Below, one piece after another: positions 18,412-27,770 of a stretch of DNA of 62,408 nucleotides (position 1 is the stretch's first letter; every line of letters begins with the position of its first letter). Origin of the DNA: Alteromonadaceae bacterium (GTDB lineage: Bacteria; Pseudomonadota; Gammaproteobacteria; Pseudomonadales; Cellvibrionaceae); assembly GCA_002746115.1 (NCBI GenBank), contig NVXL01000001.1, forward strand, positions 126,447-188,854, written 5' to 3'. Position numbers and translations under genes: made by a program. The notes under the pieces were generated by a model, which searched no databases, had not been told where the DNA came from, and was given only the letters and a program-made list of their open reading frames with translations.

Positions 18412-19815
18412 ATGTATTCATCAAAAGCTTCATCAAAACATTCACCAAAGCATTGTGTTGTATTAGATATTGTTGGTTTTAGCGCTTCGCTATTGGGCGA
18501 AAATACACCTAATATAAACCGCTATATTCAGGCCAACGCGAGCTGTCCGATGGAGGGCGTGTTCCCTGCCGTTACTACCACGGCGCAATCCAGCATGCTC
18601 ACCGGTTTGTTACCTAGTGAACACGGCGTTGTTGGTAATGGTTGGTATGAGCGAGATATGGCGGAAGTCATGTTTTGGAAGCAGAGTAACTCCTTGGTGC
18701 AGGGCAACAAAATTTGGCACAAGCTTAAGCAAACATTGCCTGACTTTCGAACCTCCAAAATTTTTTGGTGGTACAACATGTATGCCGATGTGGAAGCCTC
18801 AATTACGCCACGGCCGCACTATCCCGCGGATGGGCGTAAAATCATTGATCTTTATTCGACACCTCCTGGGCTGCATCAGTCGATTGAAAGTAAGATCGGC
18901 AAGTTTCCTTTTTTCAGTTTTTGGGGGCCGAAAGCTGGATTGCCTGCGAGTCGCTGGATTGCCGATGCCGCCATGCTGGAATATCAGCAGAATAAGCCGA
19001 ATCTACAATTGGTGTATTTGCCGCATTTAGATTACTGCTTGCAAAAATATGGGCCTTCTAGCCCGCTCATTGGGGCGGAGGTAAAAGCCATTGATGCGGT
19101 TGTTGGTGAGTTACTGGACTTTTACGAGCAGCAGTCGGCAACGGTTCTATTGGTATCTGAATACGGTATTGTTGATGTTGATACGCCAATTCACATTAAT
19201 CGTATATTAAGAGAACATGGCTACCTTGAAGTGCGAGATTCGCTTACCTGGGAATTACTTGACCCAGGGGCTAGCCGAGCATTTGCCGTGTCCGATCATC
19301 AAGTAGCACATGTTTACTTGAAATATGAGTGCGACCGCGCAGCGGTTAAACAGCTGCTAGAAAATTTGCCTGGTGTGGATTGCGTGCTGGATCACGAGGA
19401 GAAAAAGCAGTGGGGGATTGCTCATGCCCGTGCAGGTGACTTGGTTGTTGTTTCCAAAGAAAATGCTTGGTTTACTTATTATTATTGGCTAGATGAGCGT
19501 AAAGCGCCGGATTTTGCTCCAACGGTCGACATTCATCGTAAACCCGGTTATGACCCGGCTGAAATGTTTGTTGATCAGTCGCTACGCTTTCCGATGTTAA
19601 AAGTGATGATGCGGTTATTGCAGAAAAAACTGGGGATGCGGATGCTGATGGACGTGATCAGTTTGGATGCCAGCCTGGTCAAGGGGAGTCACGGCAGGCC
19701 TGCATCGACAATTGATTTAGGGCCAATATTTATTGGCCCTAAGGATATGGTCACAGGCGAGGGTATGAAAATGACGGATGTGGCTGGTAAAATCGAAGCT
19801 TTTTTTGCAGACTAA
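18412..19815 (+). CDS. eboF: EboF: alkaline phosphatase/nucleotide pyrophosphatase superfamily protein
   Basis: A 467-residue protein of the alkaline phosphatase superfamily. Metal and nucleophile motifs in order are VVLDIVG, the Thr-rich FPAVTTTAQSSMLTG (nucleophile near residues 55-57), YLPHLDYCLQKYGP, LVSEYGIVDVDTPIH and KGSHGRP. In the third motif a His usual in pyrophosphatases is Gln. In the fourth, DHG is replaced by EYG. The enzyme therefore belongs to the distinct EboF-like branch. There is no signal peptide. It is the last gene of the cluster and ends at a perfect 12-bp hairpin terminator that overlaps its stop codon. Confidence 0.87.
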   Translation: MYSSKASSKHSPKHCVVLDIVGFSASLLGENTPNINRYIQANASCPMEGVFPAVTTTAQSSMLTGLLPSEHGVVGNGWYERDMAEVMFWKQSNSLVQGNKIWHKLKQTLPDFRTSKIFWWYNMYADVEASITPRPHYPADGRKIIDLYSTPPGLHQSIESKIGKFPFFSFWGPKAGLPASRWIADAAMLEYQQNKPNLQLVYLPHLDYCLQKYGPSSPLIGAEVKAIDAVVGELLDFYEQQSATVLLVSEYGIVDVDTPIHINRILREHGYLEVRDSLTWELLDPGASRAFAVSDHQVAHVYLKYECDRAAVKQLLENLPGVDCVLDHEEKKQWGIAHARAGDLVVVSKENAWFTYYYWLDERKAPDFAPTVDIHRKPGYDPAEMFVDQSLRFPMLKVMMRLLQKKLGMRMLMDVISLDASLVKGSHGRPASTIDLGPIFIGPKDMVTGEGMKMTDVAGKIEAFFAD

Positions 19816-19866: not shown

Positions 19867-21051
19867 TTATTGCAACTGTGTAAGCTTACGTGCGACCAAG
19901 TTTTTAAAGGGTGAAAGTTTATTCCCTAGCAATAAAGTCGCGCTACGAACAAGCTTCGCGGCAGGGTGATCATTGGTGTATAGCTTCACAATGGCGTTGG
20001 TCGCTTCGTAAATGGGGCGGCAATGTAGCTGATGGCGAATTTCATACGTTTGCAGCACCCGCATACTCCCGATATCCGTACCACGGTTGGAGGCTTTGAT
20101 AACCGCATTTGCCAAGGTATCTACGCCTTGCAAACCCATGTTAAAGCCTTGTGCGGTTACGGGGTGCATGCCAACGGCAGCATCGCCGATTAGGGCAAAG
20201 CGTCTTGATACAAACCTGTCCGAATATACGCCAACCAAGGGGTAGTTAAAGCGCTTAGTTATTAGCTTCATTTTACCTAAGCGGCCGCTAATAAATTGCT
20301 CCGCTTGTTGGGCGTATTGTTCACCCGATAGCGATAGCATCTCTTGGGCGAGGTTGGCGTTTACCGTGATGACGACAGATGAAATCTTGTCGCCGAGCGG
20401 TAATATCGCGCAGGTCTTGCCGTATAAAAAACACTCTCGTGCAGTGCTATTATGATCTTTCGCGTGCTCGACATTACAGACAATCATCACGCGTCCGTAG
20501 TCTTTCATTTTGGCGCCAATGCCAAACATCCTTCGACTTTCCGAGAACCGGCTATCAGAGGCGATAAGTAATTGTGTGCTTAGTGTTGTGCCGTCATCAA
20601 GTACGGCTTTACCTGTCCAGGCGCTTTTTAGTTTGCGCTCAGTAATGATGTGGATATTGGTATATGCAGCCGCTTGCTCGTAAAGCGCTTGACGAATGTT
20701 ATGGTTGGCTACTAAGTAGCCGAGTGGCTCGTCGTTACTGTCGTTACGGGTAAAGTCCAAAGTGAAGGGGGAGGCGCCGCTCATGACTGTGGCATCTTGC
20801 AGGCGATGAATATCGTTAACGGCAATACGTTGCCAAGCGCCTATCTCACTTAAGTACTGTTGACTGCGGTGAGCGAGAGCTATCTCGCGACCGTCCATTT
20901 CTGGTTGACTTAAGTCTAGCTCAGTGACTTTATCGACGATGGCAATATTAAGGCCGACCTTTGCAAGGCGGCAGGCCATGGCCAAACCAACAGGCCCTGC
21001 ACCTATTATTACAACGTCGTAGCGGCGCTCTGCGCCTTTATCTGTTGGCAT
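19867..21051 (-). CDS. FAD-dependent aromatic hydroxylase of the UbiH/UbiF family, UbiM-like
   Basis: A 394-residue flavoprotein monooxygenase. The N-terminal dinucleotide motif is DVVIIGAGPVGLAMACRLA. A GREIALAHRS segment and the GDAAVGMHPVTAQGFNMGL motif contact FAD. The family hydroxylates the ubiquinone ring precursor. The GREIALAHRS and MHPVTAQGFN details resemble UbiM, which hydroxylates C5/C6 positions in some proteobacteria. UbiH, UbiF and related paralogues cannot be excluded without alignment. It is convergent with eboF and shares its terminator. A 14-bp inverted repeat lies 30-72 bp upstream of the start. Because it sits beside ebo genes, a role outside quinone synthesis is possible but is only inference. 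Confidence 0.8.
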   Translation of the reverse strand: MPTDKGAERRYDVVIIGAGPVGLAMACRLAKVGLNIAIVDKVTELDLSQPEMDGREIALAHRSQQYLSEIGAWQRIAVNDIHRLQDATVMSGASPFTLDFTRNDSNDEPLGYLVANHNIRQALYEQAAAYTNIHIITERKLKSAWTGKAVLDDGTTLSTQLLIASDSRFSESRRMFGIGAKMKDYGRVMIVCNVEHAKDHNSTARECFLYGKTCAILPLGDKISSVVITVNANLAQEMLSLSGEQYAQQAEQFISGRLGKMKLITKRFNYPLVGVYSDRFVSRRFALIGDAAVGMHPVTAQGFNMGLQGVDTLANAVIKASNRGTDIGSMRVLQTYEIRHQLHCRPIYEATNAIVKLYTNDHPAAKLVRSATLLLGNKLSPFKNLVARKLTQLQ

Positions 21052-21080
21052 ATAAACGCCCCGAATCTTGGAAAATTAAT

Positions 21081-21123
21081 CTGTTTAATGTACTACAAAT
21101 AAGTCTTTTAGTACATTAAACAG
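21081..21123. repeat. 14-bp perfect inverted repeat in a divergent promoter region
   Basis: CTGTTTAATGTACT (21081-21094) and AGTACATTAAACAG (21110-21123) are exact reverse complements, separated by 15 bp. The repeat lies between the UbiM-like gene (minus) and the Deg-type protease (plus). It could be two operator half-sites, a 5' leader hairpin of the UbiM-like message, or the scar of a small mobile element. No T-run follows it, so it is not a standard terminator. Confidence 0.7.
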
Positions 21124-21242
21124 CGTCTCCTTGCGGGCGGTAAGTTAAGATTAACGCAGTGGCCAGTGCCGCTGTGGTTATTTGCCTTTTGTATCTGTGT
21201 TTTTATGTGAGTATTTTTATGGGTGTATTGAACATGTGTTGT

Positions 21243-22769
21243 ATGAAATTCAAGCCGCTGACTGCCTTCTTTTCTCGATATAAGCTTGAATTTGTTTGTT
21301 CTTTTTTTTTGAGCGTACTGCTTTTGAGCTTTGCAGGCCAGGCAAGTGCTACGAGCAAAGAAGATAACTTAAAGCGCGCCGTGGTGAAAATTTACGCGAA
21401 TACAGCGGCTCCGGACTACTTTACACCATGGCGTTTATTGAACAGCCGTCAAAGTAGCGGCTCCGGCTCTGTCATTGCCAATAATCGTATTTTGACCAAC
21501 GCCCATGTGGTAGCGGATGCTCGGTATTTACAAGTTACTAAGCACGGAGATGCGCGTAAGTATTTGGCGAAAGTGTTATTTGTTGCACACGAGACTGACC
21601 TAGCCATAATTACCGTAGAAGATGAGCATTTCTTTGAGGGTATAAAACCGCTCTCGTTCGGCTCGTTACCCAAGCTATTAGAAGAGGTTTCCGTTTACGG
21701 TTACCCTTTTGGCGGTAATACCTTGAGCGTCACCAAAGGCATTATGTCGCGGGTCGAGCATCAGAAGTATGCCCATGGAAATCAATACTTTTTAGCGGGT
21801 CAGGTGGATGCCGCGATTAACCCAGGCAATAGCGGTGGGCCTGTGATTATTAAGAATAAAATCGTCGGGGTGGTTATGCAATCGAGAGCGGGCGGTAGAG
21901 CTGAGAATCTTGGCTATTTTGTGCCACCAAGCGTTATCAAACATGTACTAGACGATGCTAGAGATGGTAGCTATGAAGGCTTCTCCGATATGGGCCTGCG
22001 ATTACAAACTTTAGAAAGCCCCGCGATTAAAGCAGTCTATGGCTTAAAACCGGAGGAAAGCGGAGCGCTTGTGGTAGCAGTGTTTGATGGCGCTTCCGCT
22101 TTTGCTTATCTTCAGAAAGATGATGTCATTATGTCGATAGATGGCTACGATCTTGCCGACAACTTAACGGTGAAAATCTCGAAAGACCTACGGACTAGCT
22201 ATAAATATGTCACGGATCAGTACAGCATTGGAGAGGATGTTTCTGTTGTAGTCTCACGCCATGGTGTTAAGCAAACCATTGTATTGCCGCTGAAAAGCTA
22301 CGAGCGCCATTACAACTTGGTTCAGCGGGAACGATTTGACACTGTGCCACGTTATTACGTGTACGGAGGAGTTGTATTTGTGCCGCTTAATATGAACCTT
22401 ATCAAACGCTGGGGGCACGACTGGGTTAATAAGGCACCGATTGATTTTTTGCAGATGCGCCAGGAGTGGAGCACTCCAGAGAAACTTGAAGTGGTGGTGG
22501 CGCTTAAAGTGCTGGCGGGCGACGTTAATCTTGGTTTTCATGATTGGAAGAACTGGGTGGTTGCGTCGGTAAATGACGAGCCGATTCTAGATTTTCGGCA
22601 TTTTTGTGAGATGCTGGAACAAAATTCTCACGAGTTTGTATCGTTTAAAGACGATAACGGCTTTCAACTTGTTATGAACCATGAAAATGCGCTCAGTAGC
22701 GAAGAGGACATACTCTCGTTGTATCAGGTACCCAATAAACATTCTGTTGGCTTATTTAGTGATCCTTAA
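21243..22769 (+). CDS. Deg/HtrA-type periplasmic serine protease with two PDZ domains
   Basis: I chose the ATG at 21243. It starts a classical signal peptide with basic residues, a hydrophobic core FFLSVLLLSFAG and an AQASA-like cleavage site, whereas upstream in-frame codons add a Cys-rich leader. The trypsin-like domain has His88 (LTNAHVV), Asp119 (HETDLAII) and Ser197 (NPGNSGGPV). A PDZ domain follows at about 255-350. The C-terminal part (YVYGGVVFVPLN, then another short PDZ-like segment) resembles the PDZ_3 domain of plant Deg9/Deg2-type proteases, not bacterial DegP. At 508 residues it is longer than DegP. A run of nine T residues in the signal-peptide codons (21302-21310) is a minor slippage risk. 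Substrates are unknown. Confidence 0.88.
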   Translation: MKFKPLTAFFSRYKLEFVCSFFLSVLLLSFAGQASATSKEDNLKRAVVKIYANTAAPDYFTPWRLLNSRQSSGSGSVIANNRILTNAHVVADARYLQVTKHGDARKYLAKVLFVAHETDLAIITVEDEHFFEGIKPLSFGSLPKLLEEVSVYGYPFGGNTLSVTKGIMSRVEHQKYAHGNQYFLAGQVDAAINPGNSGGPVIIKNKIVGVVMQSRAGGRAENLGYFVPPSVIKHVLDDARDGSYEGFSDMGLRLQTLESPAIKAVYGLKPEESGALVVAVFDGASAFAYLQKDDVIMSIDGYDLADNLTVKISKDLRTSYKYVTDQYSIGEDVSVVVSRHGVKQTIVLPLKSYERHYNLVQRERFDTVPRYYVYGGVVFVPLNMNLIKRWGHDWVNKAPIDFLQMRQEWSTPEKLEVVVALKVLAGDVNLGFHDWKNWVVASVNDEPILDFRHFCEMLEQNSHEFVSFKDDNGFQLVMNHENALSSEEDILSLYQVPNKHSVGLFSDP

Positions 22770-22977
22770 ATCGCATAGTTATCATTTTTTTGACTAAACT
22801 TAATGTTACATAGCATTGTGATTCTTGATGGCGAGGCAATGACATTAAGACTTAAAAGTACTTTGATCTTACAGGCGACTCTAATCTGCCGGCAGGCCTA
22901 GCTCCTTGGCAGGTGATTTGCCTCTGGGTTATCTAAAACGAAGCTAAAAGGGCGTGAAGGTGGAGGGTGGAAGGTGT

Positions 22978-23847
22978 ATGAAAAGCGAAGTACTTTTTGA
23001 TCAGGCTAAAGACCTTATTAAAGGATTTATCGTTCCGCCGAAGCCGAGTGTCGTAAGTGCTATACAAAAAGTCGCGCCTGACCTTAAAAAAATGTCCGAC
23101 CTTTTGAAGCTCGACCCTGCCTTGTCGGCAGCAATTCTAAAGGTGATTAACTCGCCTACTATTGGTTTGGCGGCAAACATTACCTCGATTGAATATGCGA
23201 TGGAGCTGCTAGGTTATAACAGTGTTATCAATATTATTAATGCCGTATTGCTGAAAAAGACCTTAAAATCTACCCAGAAGTCATCGCTGTTAGATCGCTA
23301 CTGGCGCTCTACGAATGAAGTATCTGCTGCAATGGCTGCGATGGTGCGGCAATTGAATTTACATAAAGCGAGCATCACGGTAGATGAAGCGTATTGTCTC
23401 GGGTTGTTCCATAACTGCGGTATGCCGGTAATGTTTAACCGTTACGACTGCTATTTTGATTATTTACGTGAAGCTTACGACCAAGATGATCGCTCTGTTA
23501 ATGTCATTGAGAATGAAAAGTATCAAACTAATCACTCAGTGCTGGGGTATTTCATTACCAAAAGTTGGCACTTACCTGACGTCATCTGTAGAGTAGTGCA
23601 GCTGCATCATGACCCTAAAACATTAGGTCAATTAGATTGGCTGCCTGAAAAAACGGCAACATTGTTGGCCATATTAAAAATGGCAGAGCATATTACCAAT
23701 GAGTCTTCTCTAATGGATGTTCCTGGTGAAAACAATGAGTGGAAATTATTCTCTCAGAATATATTGGATTATATCGGTATTAGCGAAGTAGACTTTGAGG
23801 AGTTAGGCGATGTGATATTGGATTCTGTTGAGAGAGGAGCCAGTTAA
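22978..23847 (+). CDS. HDOD domain signalling protein
   Basis: A 289-residue cytoplasmic protein. The HDOD domain spans most of it: PPKPSVVSAIQKVAPDLKKMSDLLKLDPALSAAILKVINSP, ITSIEYAMELLGY, GLFHNCGMPVMF, and later HHDPKTLG. HDOD proteins are HD-superfamily relatives without the catalytic HD pair. They usually act as output or scaffold domains in c-di-GMP or two-component pathways. The start at 22978 is chosen because GGAAGG lies 5 bp upstream, and an in-frame start at 22954 has no comparable site. The upstream region 22770-22977 contains an exact 10-bp palindrome CTGCCGGCAG but no recognisable riboswitch. Confidence 0.9.
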   Translation: MKSEVLFDQAKDLIKGFIVPPKPSVVSAIQKVAPDLKKMSDLLKLDPALSAAILKVINSPTIGLAANITSIEYAMELLGYNSVINIINAVLLKKTLKSTQKSSLLDRYWRSTNEVSAAMAAMVRQLNLHKASITVDEAYCLGLFHNCGMPVMFNRYDCYFDYLREAYDQDDRSVNVIENEKYQTNHSVLGYFITKSWHLPDVICRVVQLHHDPKTLGQLDWLPEKTATLLAILKMAEHITNESSLMDVPGENNEWKLFSQNILDYIGISEVDFEELGDVILDSVERGAS

Positions 23848-23905
23848 AGGGCATGTTGGTTAATTCGTATAAATCCTTACTTTTGAGTGTAATGTAAGCG
23901 CGACT

Positions 23906-23922
23906 AAGGCAGAGCCTTTTTA
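23906..23922 (+). terminator. Small possible terminator after the HDOD gene
   Basis: AAGGC (23906-23910), loop AGA, GCCTT (23914-23918), then TTTA. A five-pair stem with a short U-run is a weak terminator, 59 bp after the HDOD stop codon. Confidence 0.4.
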
Positions 23923-24025
23923 GACTTTAATAATGAAAAACCGCACTATTGCCGCTAATGCTCCTTTTGTCCCGTCTAAGTGTTTCCTTACGGTCTATTA
24001 TGGATTTATGTGTTGATTGAAAAGC

Positions 24026-24043
24026 GAACGTTTTTTTGCGTTC
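24026..24043 (+). promoter_or_regulatory. Leader hairpin before the Hpt/HD-GYP gene
   Basis: GAACG (24026-24030) and CGTTC (24039-24043) pair around a T-rich loop. The hairpin ends 7 bp before GGAGG (24051-24055), the likely ribosome site of the next gene. That site is 15 bp from the only plausible start codon (GTG 24071), which is unusually far, because an in-frame TAA at 24056 rules out nearer starts. Weak translation initiation is therefore likely. Confidence 0.4.
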
Positions 24044-24070
24044 ATATTTTGGAGGTAAACACTTTATATC

Positions 24071-25273
24071 GTGACTGTAGATACTGCAACAACGCCGCTT
24101 CTTGAGGCTAATTCTCAGATAGCCGTTGAGTTATTCGACGCATTCGGCGACATCCACGACGAAATTGATGCCTTACTGCCTCAGTTGTTACAACGTTCTG
24201 ATGTAGAGAAGCTCAATCAGATTTTTCGCGCTATCCACAATATTAAAGGCAATGCGAGCTTGGTCGGTGCTCCGGCGATTATTCGCTTTGCTCACGCCCT
24301 AGAAAACGTTGCCGAATCGTTACGGTGCCAACGCTACGTATTAACATCAAAGCTTGCCGATTGTATTCAGTTGAGCATGGATCGCTTGCGCGATATTCAC
24401 GAACGTGAATTACTCAATCGTAAGTTTGGTTACCTTTACGAGGATGAAGCCATTCGTTTCTTAAATTTAGTGGCGGATGCTGATACCGAGGTGGTTGATT
24501 GCTTTGCTGAGCAATTGATAGAGATCCTTGGCGCTGGGGTACGCATTCCCGAAAACAACCCCTTAGTGGCAATTGAGGAGGTGGATCGCCACACGATTGA
24601 AAAGACGGTACTCGCTAATGTACCCCCTCAAAAAGAGATTGTGGTAGACGTGAAGGGTGACCGAAAAATCGTCGTGAACATTACCAATGCCAAGCTTAGT
24701 GAAGACTTGATGTACTATCAGGAATTAGCCCTACAGCAAGATAGCCAGAAGCAGAAGTGGAACCAGCGTAGCCTTATTCTGGTTGATTGGGCGCAAAAGA
24801 TGAACGAGATCAGCGGTGTTCTGGTGCCTCCTGAGCAGCTGGCTGCGGCCGTTTACTTGCATGATATAGGCTTGTCTTTTTTGACCTATGATGCCATGGT
24901 TAAAAAAGATTCTTTTACGACCGATGAGTTACAAGAAATTCAGCAGCATCCGCGGTGGGGAGCCAATATGCTAAGCCGTATTCCTGGTTGGGAGGAAGCG
25001 GCTGAAATTGTTATGCAACATCATGAGTACATTGACGGTAGTGGCTTTCCTATGGGGTTAAAAAGTAATGATATTCATCACGGAGCCAAAATTCTGGCCA
25101 TTATCGATGAGTTCTTTGAATTAATTAATAACGACCTTGATAAGTCAAAACGCTTGCTCGTCGTGCGCGCTATCGCGCAGGTAAATGCCTGCGCAGATAC
25201 AAGGTTTGAAGGTTTATGGGTGCAATGTTTTAATCAAATGATACGCAAAGAGGTGAGAACTGGCAGTCTCTAG
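24071..25273 (+). CDS. Hpt domain fused to HD-GYP-type phosphodiesterase domain
   Basis: A 400-residue protein. Residues about 10-110 form a histidine phosphotransfer domain with the phospho-accepting His in FRAIHNIKGNASLVG. Residues about 225-395 form an HD-GYP-like domain with the HD pair in AAVYLHDIGLSFL, then QHPRWGANML, and HHEYIDGSGFPMGLKSNDI. The GYP triplet is GFP and the DGxGYP glycine pattern is kept. HD-GYP enzymes hydrolyse c-di-GMP, and the metal-binding His and Asp residues are present. The direct fusion would let a phosphorelay control turnover of the messenger. The gene ends 4 bp from the end of the convergent GGDEF/EAL gene. Confidence 0.88.
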   Translation: MTVDTATTPLLEANSQIAVELFDAFGDIHDEIDALLPQLLQRSDVEKLNQIFRAIHNIKGNASLVGAPAIIRFAHALENVAESLRCQRYVLTSKLADCIQLSMDRLRDIHERELLNRKFGYLYEDEAIRFLNLVADADTEVVDCFAEQLIEILGAGVRIPENNPLVAIEEVDRHTIEKTVLANVPPQKEIVVDVKGDRKIVVNITNAKLSEDLMYYQELALQQDSQKQKWNQRSLILVDWAQKMNEISGVLVPPEQLAAAVYLHDIGLSFLTYDAMVKKDSFTTDELQEIQQHPRWGANMLSRIPGWEEAAEIVMQHHEYIDGSGFPMGLKSNDIHHGAKILAIIDEFFELINNDLDKSKRLLVVRAIAQVNACADTRFEGLWVQCFNQMIRKEVRTGSL

Positions 25274-25277
25274 CTTT

Positions 25278-27770
25278 TTATCCGCATACACTAGAGGTAA
25301 TGGGTGTTGGGTCTGCCACGTCTGTCGCTGAAGTAACATTCTGCTTTGGTGGTTTAAAGAGTATTTGGGTAATATCCTTAGCGACTTGTGGTTGACTAAA
25401 AAAGAAGCCCTGGTAACTGTGCAGAGGTTTATCTTTTAACAACTCCCACTGTTGATGTGTTTCGATACCTGTAACGATAGTGTCGATCTGTAAGGTCTTG
25501 GCCATTGCAATAATGCCGTCAATAAATAATTCCTCGCGTTTGGTGCCAGGGAGCTTTTCGACAAAGCTACGGTCAATCTTTACGGTATCAATTGGGAACT
25601 GATTTAAATAATTCAGCGACGCATAGCCAGTACCGAAATCGTCTAATACGATTGAGAACCCCATGGCTTTTAAGCTTCGGAGTGTCTCAAGAATGGATTG
25701 ATCTTTGAGTGCCAATAAAGGCTCTGTGATTTCTATGTCCACCTGTGAGGCATCAATGCCGTGCCTTTCTAGGTTTTTTTCTAAGGTATCAGTGAGTAAT
25801 TTACCTTGATCGAACTGACGTGTTGAGAGGTTGATGCTCAGGCGCAAGAGGGGGGAAATGCTGTGTTGCCAGCGTTTAAATTGTTTACAGGCTTCGCCGA
25901 GTAACCATTCAAAGACAGGGAAAATCAAACGAGTGTCTTCGAGTATAGGGATAAACTCTAATGGTGAGATTAAACCGAGTTGCTTGCTCTTGCAGCGCAA
26001 TAATACTTCGAGCGCGCAGATTTTTCCGTTGCCAAACTCGACTCTGGGTTGATAGCACAAGTAAAACTCTTTGTCTTGCAGAGCCCGCTTCATCGCGCTT
26101 TCTAGCGTCCTACGGCGTTTGCTCTTATTGTTAAGTTCTTCGGTGAAGTATTGGAAGTTATTACGGCCTTTGTCCTTGGCTAAATACAAGGCTGAGTCGG
26201 CATTACGCATGATGGTCTGAATGTCCGTGCCGTCTTTAGGGTAAATAGCAATACCGACGCTGACACCGATTTGCACCGTGCCTTTGAATAATTTGATGGG
26301 CGTATCTAGGGCGTCAATTAATTTCTGTGCGACAACCGCACAGCCTCTGCCATCGGCAACATTGGAACTAAGTAATATGTTGAACTCATCACCACCGATT
26401 CGGCCAACGCTATCGGAATCTCTGCAAACACTTTGGATTTTTTTACCGACAATACTCAGTAGTTCATCGCCAGCATCATGGCCGAACGCGTCATTAACGG
26501 CTTTGAAACGATCTAAGTCCAGCGCAAGTAGGGCGATTTGAGTGTTGTTACGCTTGGCTAAATCCATATTCTGCATGAGTTGTGCGTTAAACAAAGCGCG
26601 ATTCGATAAGCCTGTTAATGGGTCATACAAGGCTTGGGATTGCAGTTTTTCGTTCGCTTGCTCAAGTGAGCGTCGCTTCTCCGCAAGTAGGCTGTTGTCT
26701 TGCAGTAATATGGCTTGGCTGTGATCACTGAGGGTGAACTGAGTGAAGATAAAGCTGCGTACTTGACCGCTTTGGTCATTAATATCAAAGACTTGCTTAC
26801 CGTCTTTCTTTTCTAGATCCTCAATGGCAGCAAAGATGCTAGGGCATTGCTCAATGATATCCACCATGATTTCGTTTATGGGTAGATAAGAGGACAAGGA
26901 TCGCTTGATAAAGCCAATTTGCATTTGCTCAGCAATTTGCTCAAAGAAGTTGAAATGCTGATTTTGGTACATGGCTAGCGCCATATTGACGATGGTGCGA
27001 ATACGTAGATGAAAAATATTAATGGGTTCATCGTCGTAGAGAATATCGAGAGCGCCGGATTTGAGCGCTTCTTCCGGAATACCATCTCGTGTCGTATAGA
27101 TGACGACGATACTACCCGAAGTGGCTTGTGTACTCATCAGCTTGCGAATCAGGGTTTGCCCAGTATCGTTTGCCATCAAATAGTTAACGATGATAACCAG
27201 TTGTTGATGTCGTTTAGCAATACCAAGACTTTGCTCAATCGAATTGGCCGAATATACACGATACCCTTGTTGGCGCAGTGCGTTTGAAAACTTATCGCTG
27301 AGCGTGGGCGTATTATCAGCGAGTAAAATGTTTACATGAGTGTCATGTGCGCTGCGGGCTTTGGGGTGTTGCCTTGGAGCATGGCAGCGAGACAAAAATT
27401 GGGTGATACGGGCGGGGAGCTCATCCATTTTGGCTTCAAATTGCCATTCAATAGGAGAGGCAATTTCAGGGAACAATTCGTAATCTGATTGCTTTGCGTC
27501 GTTGGAATATATCAGTAAGGGTGGTGGCTCGCCTTTCGATAGTGCTCGTAAACGTTTAACAAACTGCTCTCCAGTGGCATCTTTTAACTGCCAGCTGACG
27601 ATAATGGCATCGTACTGCAGTCCGTGCTCCGCAGTTCTTAAGTAACGATCTATGCCTGATTGGGAGTCAGTCGCAATATCGACATTGACGCTATTTTCGC
27701 TTAAACCTTCCTTTAAGTAGCCACTAGCGTCATCTGAACTTTCTACAACTAACACATGATAGTCTTTCAC
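25278..27770 (-). CDS. Dual pseudo-receiver GGDEF-EAL protein
   Basis: An 830-residue cytoplasmic protein. It begins with two receiver-like domains. The first (residues 1-125) has Ser where the phosphorylated Asp should be (AIIVSWQLKD). The second (about 145-265) has Asn (VIIVNYLMAN). A linker with a PAS-like region follows, then a GGDEF domain with intact RIGGDEFN and an RDSD inhibitory site five residues before it. The EAL domain at the end has EVLLR in place of EALLR but keeps SINLSTRQF, IEITE, DDFGTGYASL, VKIDRSF and SYQGFFFS. Both cyclase and phosphodiesterase activities are thus possible, with classical phosphorylation of the receivers excluded. It is convergent with the Hpt/HD-GYP gene. 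Confidence 0.9.
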   Translation of the reverse strand: MKDYHVLVVESSDDASGYLKEGLSENSVNVDIATDSQSGIDRYLRTAEHGLQYDAIIVSWQLKDATGEQFVKRLRALSKGEPPPLLIYSNDAKQSDYELFPEIASPIEWQFEAKMDELPARITQFLSRCHAPRQHPKARSAHDTHVNILLADNTPTLSDKFSNALRQQGYRVYSANSIEQSLGIAKRHQQLVIIVNYLMANDTGQTLIRKLMSTQATSGSIVVIYTTRDGIPEEALKSGALDILYDDEPINIFHLRIRTIVNMALAMYQNQHFNFFEQIAEQMQIGFIKRSLSSYLPINEIMVDIIEQCPSIFAAIEDLEKKDGKQVFDINDQSGQVRSFIFTQFTLSDHSQAILLQDNSLLAEKRRSLEQANEKLQSQALYDPLTGLSNRALFNAQLMQNMDLAKRNNTQIALLALDLDRFKAVNDAFGHDAGDELLSIVGKKIQSVCRDSDSVGRIGGDEFNILLSSNVADGRGCAVVAQKLIDALDTPIKLFKGTVQIGVSVGIAIYPKDGTDIQTIMRNADSALYLAKDKGRNNFQYFTEELNNKSKRRRTLESAMKRALQDKEFYLCYQPRVEFGNGKICALEVLLRCKSKQLGLISPLEFIPILEDTRLIFPVFEWLLGEACKQFKRWQHSISPLLRLSINLSTRQFDQGKLLTDTLEKNLERHGIDASQVDIEITEPLLALKDQSILETLRSLKAMGFSIVLDDFGTGYASLNYLNQFPIDTVKIDRSFVEKLPGTKREELFIDGIIAMAKTLQIDTIVTGIETHQQWELLKDKPLHSYQGFFFSQPQVAKDITQILFKPPKQNVTSATDVADPTPITSSVCG

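Follow-up and report, generated by a model that had tools for sequence, protein, structure and literature searches.

A GGDEF-EAL protein with two aspartate-less receiver domains and an altered EAL glutamate: an unusual combination of known parts

In a stretch of bacterial DNA of 62,408 nucleotides, hereafter called the window, we find a gene (25278..27770, minus strand) for an 830-residue protein of the order REC-REC-PAS-like-GGDEF-EAL, in which both receivers have lost their phospho-accepting aspartate. Each of its parts is of a known kind, but they are combined in an unusual way. It is well supported by the sequence that its receivers can no longer take up phosphate in the usual way and that its control is independent of phosphorylation. 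The explanation that we favor, with moderate confidence, is that non-phosphorylatable docking pseudo-receivers would control an active, product-inhibited cyclase, followed by an EAL domain that would bind c-di-GMP without hydrolysing it.

The reading frame is fully open from a GTG start at 27770 to 25278 on the minus strand, on which all features of the protein lie. Pfam recognized two receiver stretches, a GGDEF domain at residues 380-538 (26157..26633) and an EAL domain at residues 559-794 (25389..26096). Among the 25 NCBIfam families listed, the GGDEF domain model TIGR00254 passed its threshold, and none of the equivalogs passed theirs. The AlphaFold2 model of the whole protein (38-row alignment, mean pLDDT 82, pTM 0.48) contains two receiver-like domains, a long helix at residues 250-280, a poorly resolved middle, a further helix at residues 360-381, which comes after the PAS-like region and runs into the GGDEF domain, and finally the well-resolved GGDEF and EAL domains. 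Receiver 1 (residues 1-130; 27381..27770) was placed by alignment, model and structure comparison, and receiver 2 (residues 144-268; 26967..27341) additionally by Pfam. Structure comparison matched residues 1-132 and 143-272 to receivers, with Z 15.1-16.8 among the 50 matches listed, and the C-terminal half to two GGDEF-EAL tandems, that of PA0575 (Z 37.6, 424 aligned) and that of MorA (Z 34.9, 418 aligned). Used alone in a sequence search, receiver 1 was recognized weakly (best E 1e-6). The PAS-like region (residues ~283-360; 26691..26924) is assigned from the order of strands and helices in the models and from its alignment to three tandem-receiver relatives. A second model, of the N-terminus only (four sequences, mean pLDDT 66.5), has this PAS-like order with low to moderate confidence; the comparison run with the N-terminal model listed receivers only and is thus not informative on the PAS-like part.

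A sequence-only reading of this DNA had proposed that Ser and Asn replace the aspartates of the two receivers, and both the alignment with the three relatives and the AlphaFold2 model bear this out. In this alignment (A1) the LLDW of all three relatives lies over IVSW of the window protein and their IIDF, again in all three, over IVNY. The exact substitutions are therefore D to S59 (codon AGC, 27594..27596) and D to N196 (codon AAC, 27183..27185). In the model both parts fold as receivers, with S59 and N196 at the ends of strands 55-59 and 192-196, i.e. of β3. A displaced but functional aspartate can be set aside: no other Asp stands at the β3 end of either receiver, the nearest ones being D54, D64 and D202. 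The losses extend beyond this residue. Receiver 1 keeps DD1 (E10) and T/S (S89) and has lost DD2 (S11), D (S59) and K (E111, whose placement rests on alignment A1 and is less sure than the other receiver positions). In receiver 2, DD1 (D152) and T (T226) remain, and DD2 (N153), D (N196) and K (D246) are gone. The identical three of five active-site residues are thus gone from both receivers, and it is for this reason that control without aspartate phosphorylation, as the sequence-only reading had it, is well supported. AGC is two base changes away from an Asp codon and AAC one; a sequencing slip is unlikely, since S59 (AGC) and also T767 (ACA) of the EAL domain are each two changes from the usual codons. 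According to Bourret and co-workers (PMC12632262), a pseudo-receiver is a receiver fold in which one or more of DD, D, T and K are missing, and it counts as aspartate-less if D is among them. By this definition both domains, with the fold given by Pfam and model and with DD2, D and K absent, are aspartate-less pseudo-receivers. In a representative bacterial set, the same paper counts ~6% of receivers as pseudo-receivers; for aspartate-less receivers across all life it cites ~4%.

The closest relatives of the N-terminus are three proteins from the same taxonomic order (L054, L055 and L056; E 9.9e-31, 1.2e-27 and 2.5e-25; 22-24% identity), which align to residues 4-373 in two cases and to residues 48-373 in the third, and all of which carry Asp in both receivers. 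A profile search at the level of the class gave matches in 36 of 369 genomes, the window genome included. From the 36 matches outside the window 29 were fetched, most of them being proteins of 840-900 residues with the order REC-REC-PAS-GGDEF-EAL. From 41 aligned relatives we dropped L054, L055, L093 and L097, which have no GGDEF, L131, which lacks receiver 1, and a duplicate; 35 unique tandem-receiver GGDEF-EAL proteins were left for counting. At the Asp position of receiver 1 they have Gly (33), Ser (1) or Asp (1, L056). A first receiver without its Asp (34/35) is thus common among proteins of this domain order. Receiver 2 of the same proteins keeps DD, D and K in 35/35 and T in 34/35. Compared with these 35, only the window protein has both receivers dead, in a sample which, gathered with a profile or query tied to Asp-bearing rows, is biased against double-degenerate proteins. 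We also note a class-wide REC-REC-PAS-GGDEF-EAL family (L100-L129, L094-L099) with Gly for Asp in receiver 1, mostly with an LGWP motif, and with the Asp of receiver 2 kept. This LGWP family is a recurrent case of a pseudo-receiver joined to what is apparently a true receiver.

In the trees the window protein falls elsewhere. Its receiver 1 groups with the Asp-bearing L054-L056 (branch 5.4), and its receiver 2 sits with L093 and L097, in which Asp is kept, beside L054-L056 (branch 5.0). Both fall outside the LGWP clade (for receiver 1 a starred group of 36 rows, for receiver 2 a starred clade of 35), and both are on long branches for which the tool issued a warning. Because the window receivers group with Asp-bearing ones, their losses look independent of the LGWP clade, a reading to be taken with caution on account of the long branches; with the same warning, the trees do not favor a loss inherited from that family. 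The search of 144 genomes of the family, which scored at most 13 candidates per genome, gave no full-length match, and outside the window the N-terminus was matched best, though weakly, by a receiver (E 2.9e-9, residues 136-244). Viral contigs searched with receiver 1 and genome contigs searched with the N-terminus alone yielded no relative; a search with the whole protein was dominated by other GGDEF-EAL proteins. In the genome collection this genus has a single member, and no close orthologue turned up that would show the changes to be conserved. In the accessible parts of the open-licence literature on degenerate receivers and pseudo-receivers with GGDEF and EAL we found no GGDEF-EAL protein with tandem aspartate-less receivers, which is no proof of absence.

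In the C-terminal half, as the sequence-only reading had it, the GGDEF domain and its RDSD inhibitory site (I-site) are kept: D383, D418, D420, N426, D427, D435, GGDEF at 459-463 and K532 are all present, each checked residue is shared with at least 33 of the 35 relatives, and RDSD (residues 450-453; 26412..26423) lies five residues ahead of GGDEF. By sequence criteria the protein is a probable diguanylate cyclase, with predicted activity. The further claim that most EAL residues are kept holds by count, with 11 of the 12 positions checked unchanged (E588, L590, R592, N647, E680, E683, D710, D711, K731, E770 and Q787), but the missing one is the first Glu of ExxE, which is catalytic in other EAL enzymes. 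Here Thr767 (codon ACA, 25470..25472) takes its place; in the MorA alignment AEGVE stands over VTGIE. The residue corresponds to E352 of RocR, in a numbering taken from papers rather than from an alignment to RocR, and E352 is reported among the metal ligands of that enzyme (PMC7911125). In TBD1265, alanine at the first ExxE Glu (E703) abolished activity, and alanine at the second (E706) left it unaffected (PMC12943098). The change at the E352 position thus argues against a working phosphodiesterase. The EAL motif itself reads EVL (EVLLR, 588-592) with ExLxR kept, and loop 6 reads DDFGTGYAS; the EVL is not telling in itself, since valine is described as the commonest replacement at this point (PMC4374697). 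In the 77 unique EAL domains of the fetched loci, the window included (109 rows before incomplete and identical ones were dropped), the E352 position holds Glu in 73, Lys in two, Gly in one and Thr in one, the window protein. Its own genome has 27 EAL domains that we found, 24 of them with Glu; the exceptions are the window protein (T), a paralogue on contig C267 (K) and a protein on C284 (P). The EAL domain of the latter (L218) is broadly degenerate, at several catalytic positions. Taken together, the window EAL lacks the full phosphodiesterase set, with Thr for the first ExxE Glu, and shows the features of the FimX/LapD kind of non-catalytic EAL, namely ExLxR kept and a catalytic residue lost. 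Most likely it binds c-di-GMP without hydrolysing it. Some caution in such a reading is advised by FimX, whose EAL lacks several catalytic residues: according to PMC3527489 the isolated EAL domain binds c-di-GMP and has no significant activity, and the full-length protein is reported as phosphodiesterase-active.

How might such a protein work? We suggest a docking and dimerizing module, probably made up of both pseudo-receivers together with the PAS-like region, which the long helices 250-280 and 360-381 would connect to a diguanylate cyclase that is active and product-inhibited. The EAL domain, with its Glu lost and ExLxR and the other metal and ligand residues kept, would then serve as a feedback sensor or effector surface. 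We infer cyclase activity, binding of c-di-GMP by the EAL domain and control by contacts. Contacts with other molecules probably govern the protein, and that its output is set by contact with another protein is a reasonable inference. The swapped aspartates set against Asp-bearing relatives, the kept receiver folds, the complete GGDEF domain, the lost EAL Glu and the match of the C-terminal half to the solved PA0575 and MorA tandems count for this explanation. The weak recognition of receiver 1, the low to moderate confidence of the PAS-like region, the weak best match to the N-terminus in the family genomes, the long branches and the fact that the change in TBD1265 was to alanine, not to Thr, count against it.

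A rival explanation is an EAL domain that still hydrolyses c-di-GMP despite T767, which would make the protein a bifunctional cyclase/phosphodiesterase under pseudo-receiver control. The 11 kept positions with ExLxR and the loop 6 sequence fit this idea, the best solved relatives include the MorA tandem, whose entry is named diguanylate cyclase - phosphodiesterase, and full-length FimX is active with catalytic residues lost, as its isolated EAL domain is not (PMC3527489). Against it stand the inactive TBD1265 variant, altered at the equivalent Glu (PMC12943098), and the Glu kept in 24 of 27 EAL domains of the genome, so that we consider hydrolysis unlikely. It is also possible that the N-terminus is simply decaying, since both receivers are on long branches. 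In its full form this idea has a lineage-specific newcomer gene whose N-terminus drifts unconstrained and whose GGDEF domain is constitutive. The branches of 5.4 and 5.0 would agree with it, as would the lack of a full-length match in the 144 family genomes and the absence of the gene and its two neighbors from beside csiV in 20 relatives. The fully open frame, the conserved GGDEF residues, the DD1 and T/S residues kept in both receivers and the receiver folds of the models all speak against such drift, and we hold it to be rather unlikely. Finally, the pseudo-receivers could sense a ligand, for instance by binding c-di-GMP as the pseudo-receivers of ShkA and Cle do (PMC10333796). The Cle-type motif listed in that source, the sole ligand signature searched, is absent from the window protein, and this option appears highly improbable to us. 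Docking pseudo-receivers in front of an active cyclase and a c-di-GMP-binding EAL domain remain our preferred explanation.

Which partner could dock is a question that leads to the neighboring genes. The immediate neighbors encode an HDOD protein (297 residues; 22954..23847, plus strand; ORF and Pfam), an Hpt-HD-GYP protein on the same strand (400 residues; 24071..25273, plus strand; ORF, Pfam and motif check) and CsiV. The Hpt-HD-GYP protein has an intact HxxKG phospho-His motif and keeps the HD and HHE..DG.G(F)P motifs. Its gene indeed faces the GGDEF-EAL gene, as the sequence-only reading stated, the two being convergent with 4 bases between them. The joint circuit drawn from this arrangement, in which the HD-GYP protein would be the phosphodiesterase, the GGDEF-EAL protein would make and sense c-di-GMP, and Hpt or HDOD would dock on the pseudo-receivers, fares less well. 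The genes are adjacent, but their convergent orientation means that they cannot form one operon or share a transcript, and no receiver Asp is there for the Hpt His to use. We looked at 37 other loci of Hpt-HD-GYP homologues, the C267 paralogue included (17 of 57 non-window places listed and 20 of 23 places in other genomes; several share a genome and several are cut off by contig ends). A GGDEF-EAL gene is nearby in three of them (L188, L196 and L240), two of which keep the ExxE Glu, and HDOD was detected in 0/37; the Hpt part went undetected in two of the 17, and the 20 count as homologues without a check of the Hpt His. In L240 (2239-4896) the GGDEF-EAL gene is convergent with the Hpt-HD-GYP homologue as in the window, with no receiver detected and the Glu kept.

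A parallel lies in the same genome on C267 (L196:4374-9810). Here a second Hpt-HD-GYP homologue, with the Hpt His replaced, shares a run of genes on one strand with a hybrid kinase and with a REC-PAS-GGDEF-EAL protein that has Lys for the first Glu of ExxE. The chance that both Hpt-HD-GYP-linked GGDEF-EAL proteins lack the Glu is 3/351 = 0.009, for a pattern noticed post hoc. This thin parallel favors the joint circuit, and the replaced His of the C267 homologue counts against it, as does the third homologue of the genome (C41; L265:6576-7662), split over two reading frames, which has no GGDEF or EAL match within ~7 kb. Beside csiV in 20 family genomes we found none of the trio of HDOD, Hpt-HD-GYP and GGDEF-EAL. 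In one of these genomes, G006, csiV is directly convergent with the homologue of a gene that lies at 18412-19815 in the window and looks phosphatase-like by eye, so the five window genes between them (19867-27770) are absent at that site. A conserved Hpt-HD-GYP, HDOD and GGDEF-EAL cluster was thus not found in the loci looked at. Among the class genomes, with the window genome left out, Hpt-HD-GYP and tandem-receiver genes share 5 genomes against 1.5 expected (P 0.012), where they are on different contigs or ~440 kb apart (G607); because signalling-rich genomes would give this too, we do not use it as evidence. Overall we regard a joint circuit as quite improbable. In a wider picture, all the classical switches of a c-di-GMP node would be demoted, the receivers to docking or sensing, the EAL domain to a sensor, with hydrolysis handed over to partner HD-GYP proteins; the Glu loss on C267 would reflect the same division of labor. 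We offer this as a distinctly doubtful idea.

In comparison with known systems, the GGDEF-EAL tandems of MorA and PA0575 are the closest solved sequences and structures for the C-terminal half; they keep the ExxE Glu where the window protein has Thr. Their N-termini differ from that of the window protein. FimX (REC-PAS-degenerate GGDEF-EVL) shares the EVL motif (PMC3527489). However, it has one receiver and a degenerate GGDEF domain, whereas the window protein has two receivers and an intact one and matches FimX far more weakly than MorA (79 vs 332 bits); the intact GGDEF and the weak score rule out membership. In PleD, as in the window protein, a cyclase is preceded by two receiver folds; of the two in PleD one is a pseudo-receiver, but the protein has three domains, no EAL and a first receiver that is phosphorylated (PMC12632262), where the window protein has S59. 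The LGWP family shares the domain order and a receiver 1 without Asp (34/35), yet it differs in its intact receiver 2, where the window protein has N153, N196 and D246, in the first ExxE Glu kept in the rows read, and in its clade, outside which the window receivers fall on long branches. Most similar in the N-terminal half are L054-L056, whose REC-REC-PAS-like module aligns with the window protein end to end (best E 9.9e-31, residues 4-373). L054 and L055 are hybrid-kinase-like, and L056 (1895-5686) encodes 1263 residues with four receivers around PAS-GGDEF-EAL (REC-REC-PAS-GGDEF-EAL-REC-REC), sharing GGDEF-EAL with the window protein. Unlike the window protein, all three keep both receiver Asp and L056 also keeps ExxE. 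They adjoin cheB- and cheR-like genes, to which L054 and L055 add cheA-, cheW- and mcp-like ones (all named by eye); the window gene, unlike such chemosensory tandem-receiver modules, is not beside che genes. The switching of pseudo-receivers in bacteria is described as an open question (PMC12632262). A probable cyclase with two aspartate-less receivers, and relatives with both aspartates that share its module, offer a natural comparison for the role of a receiver without phosphate.
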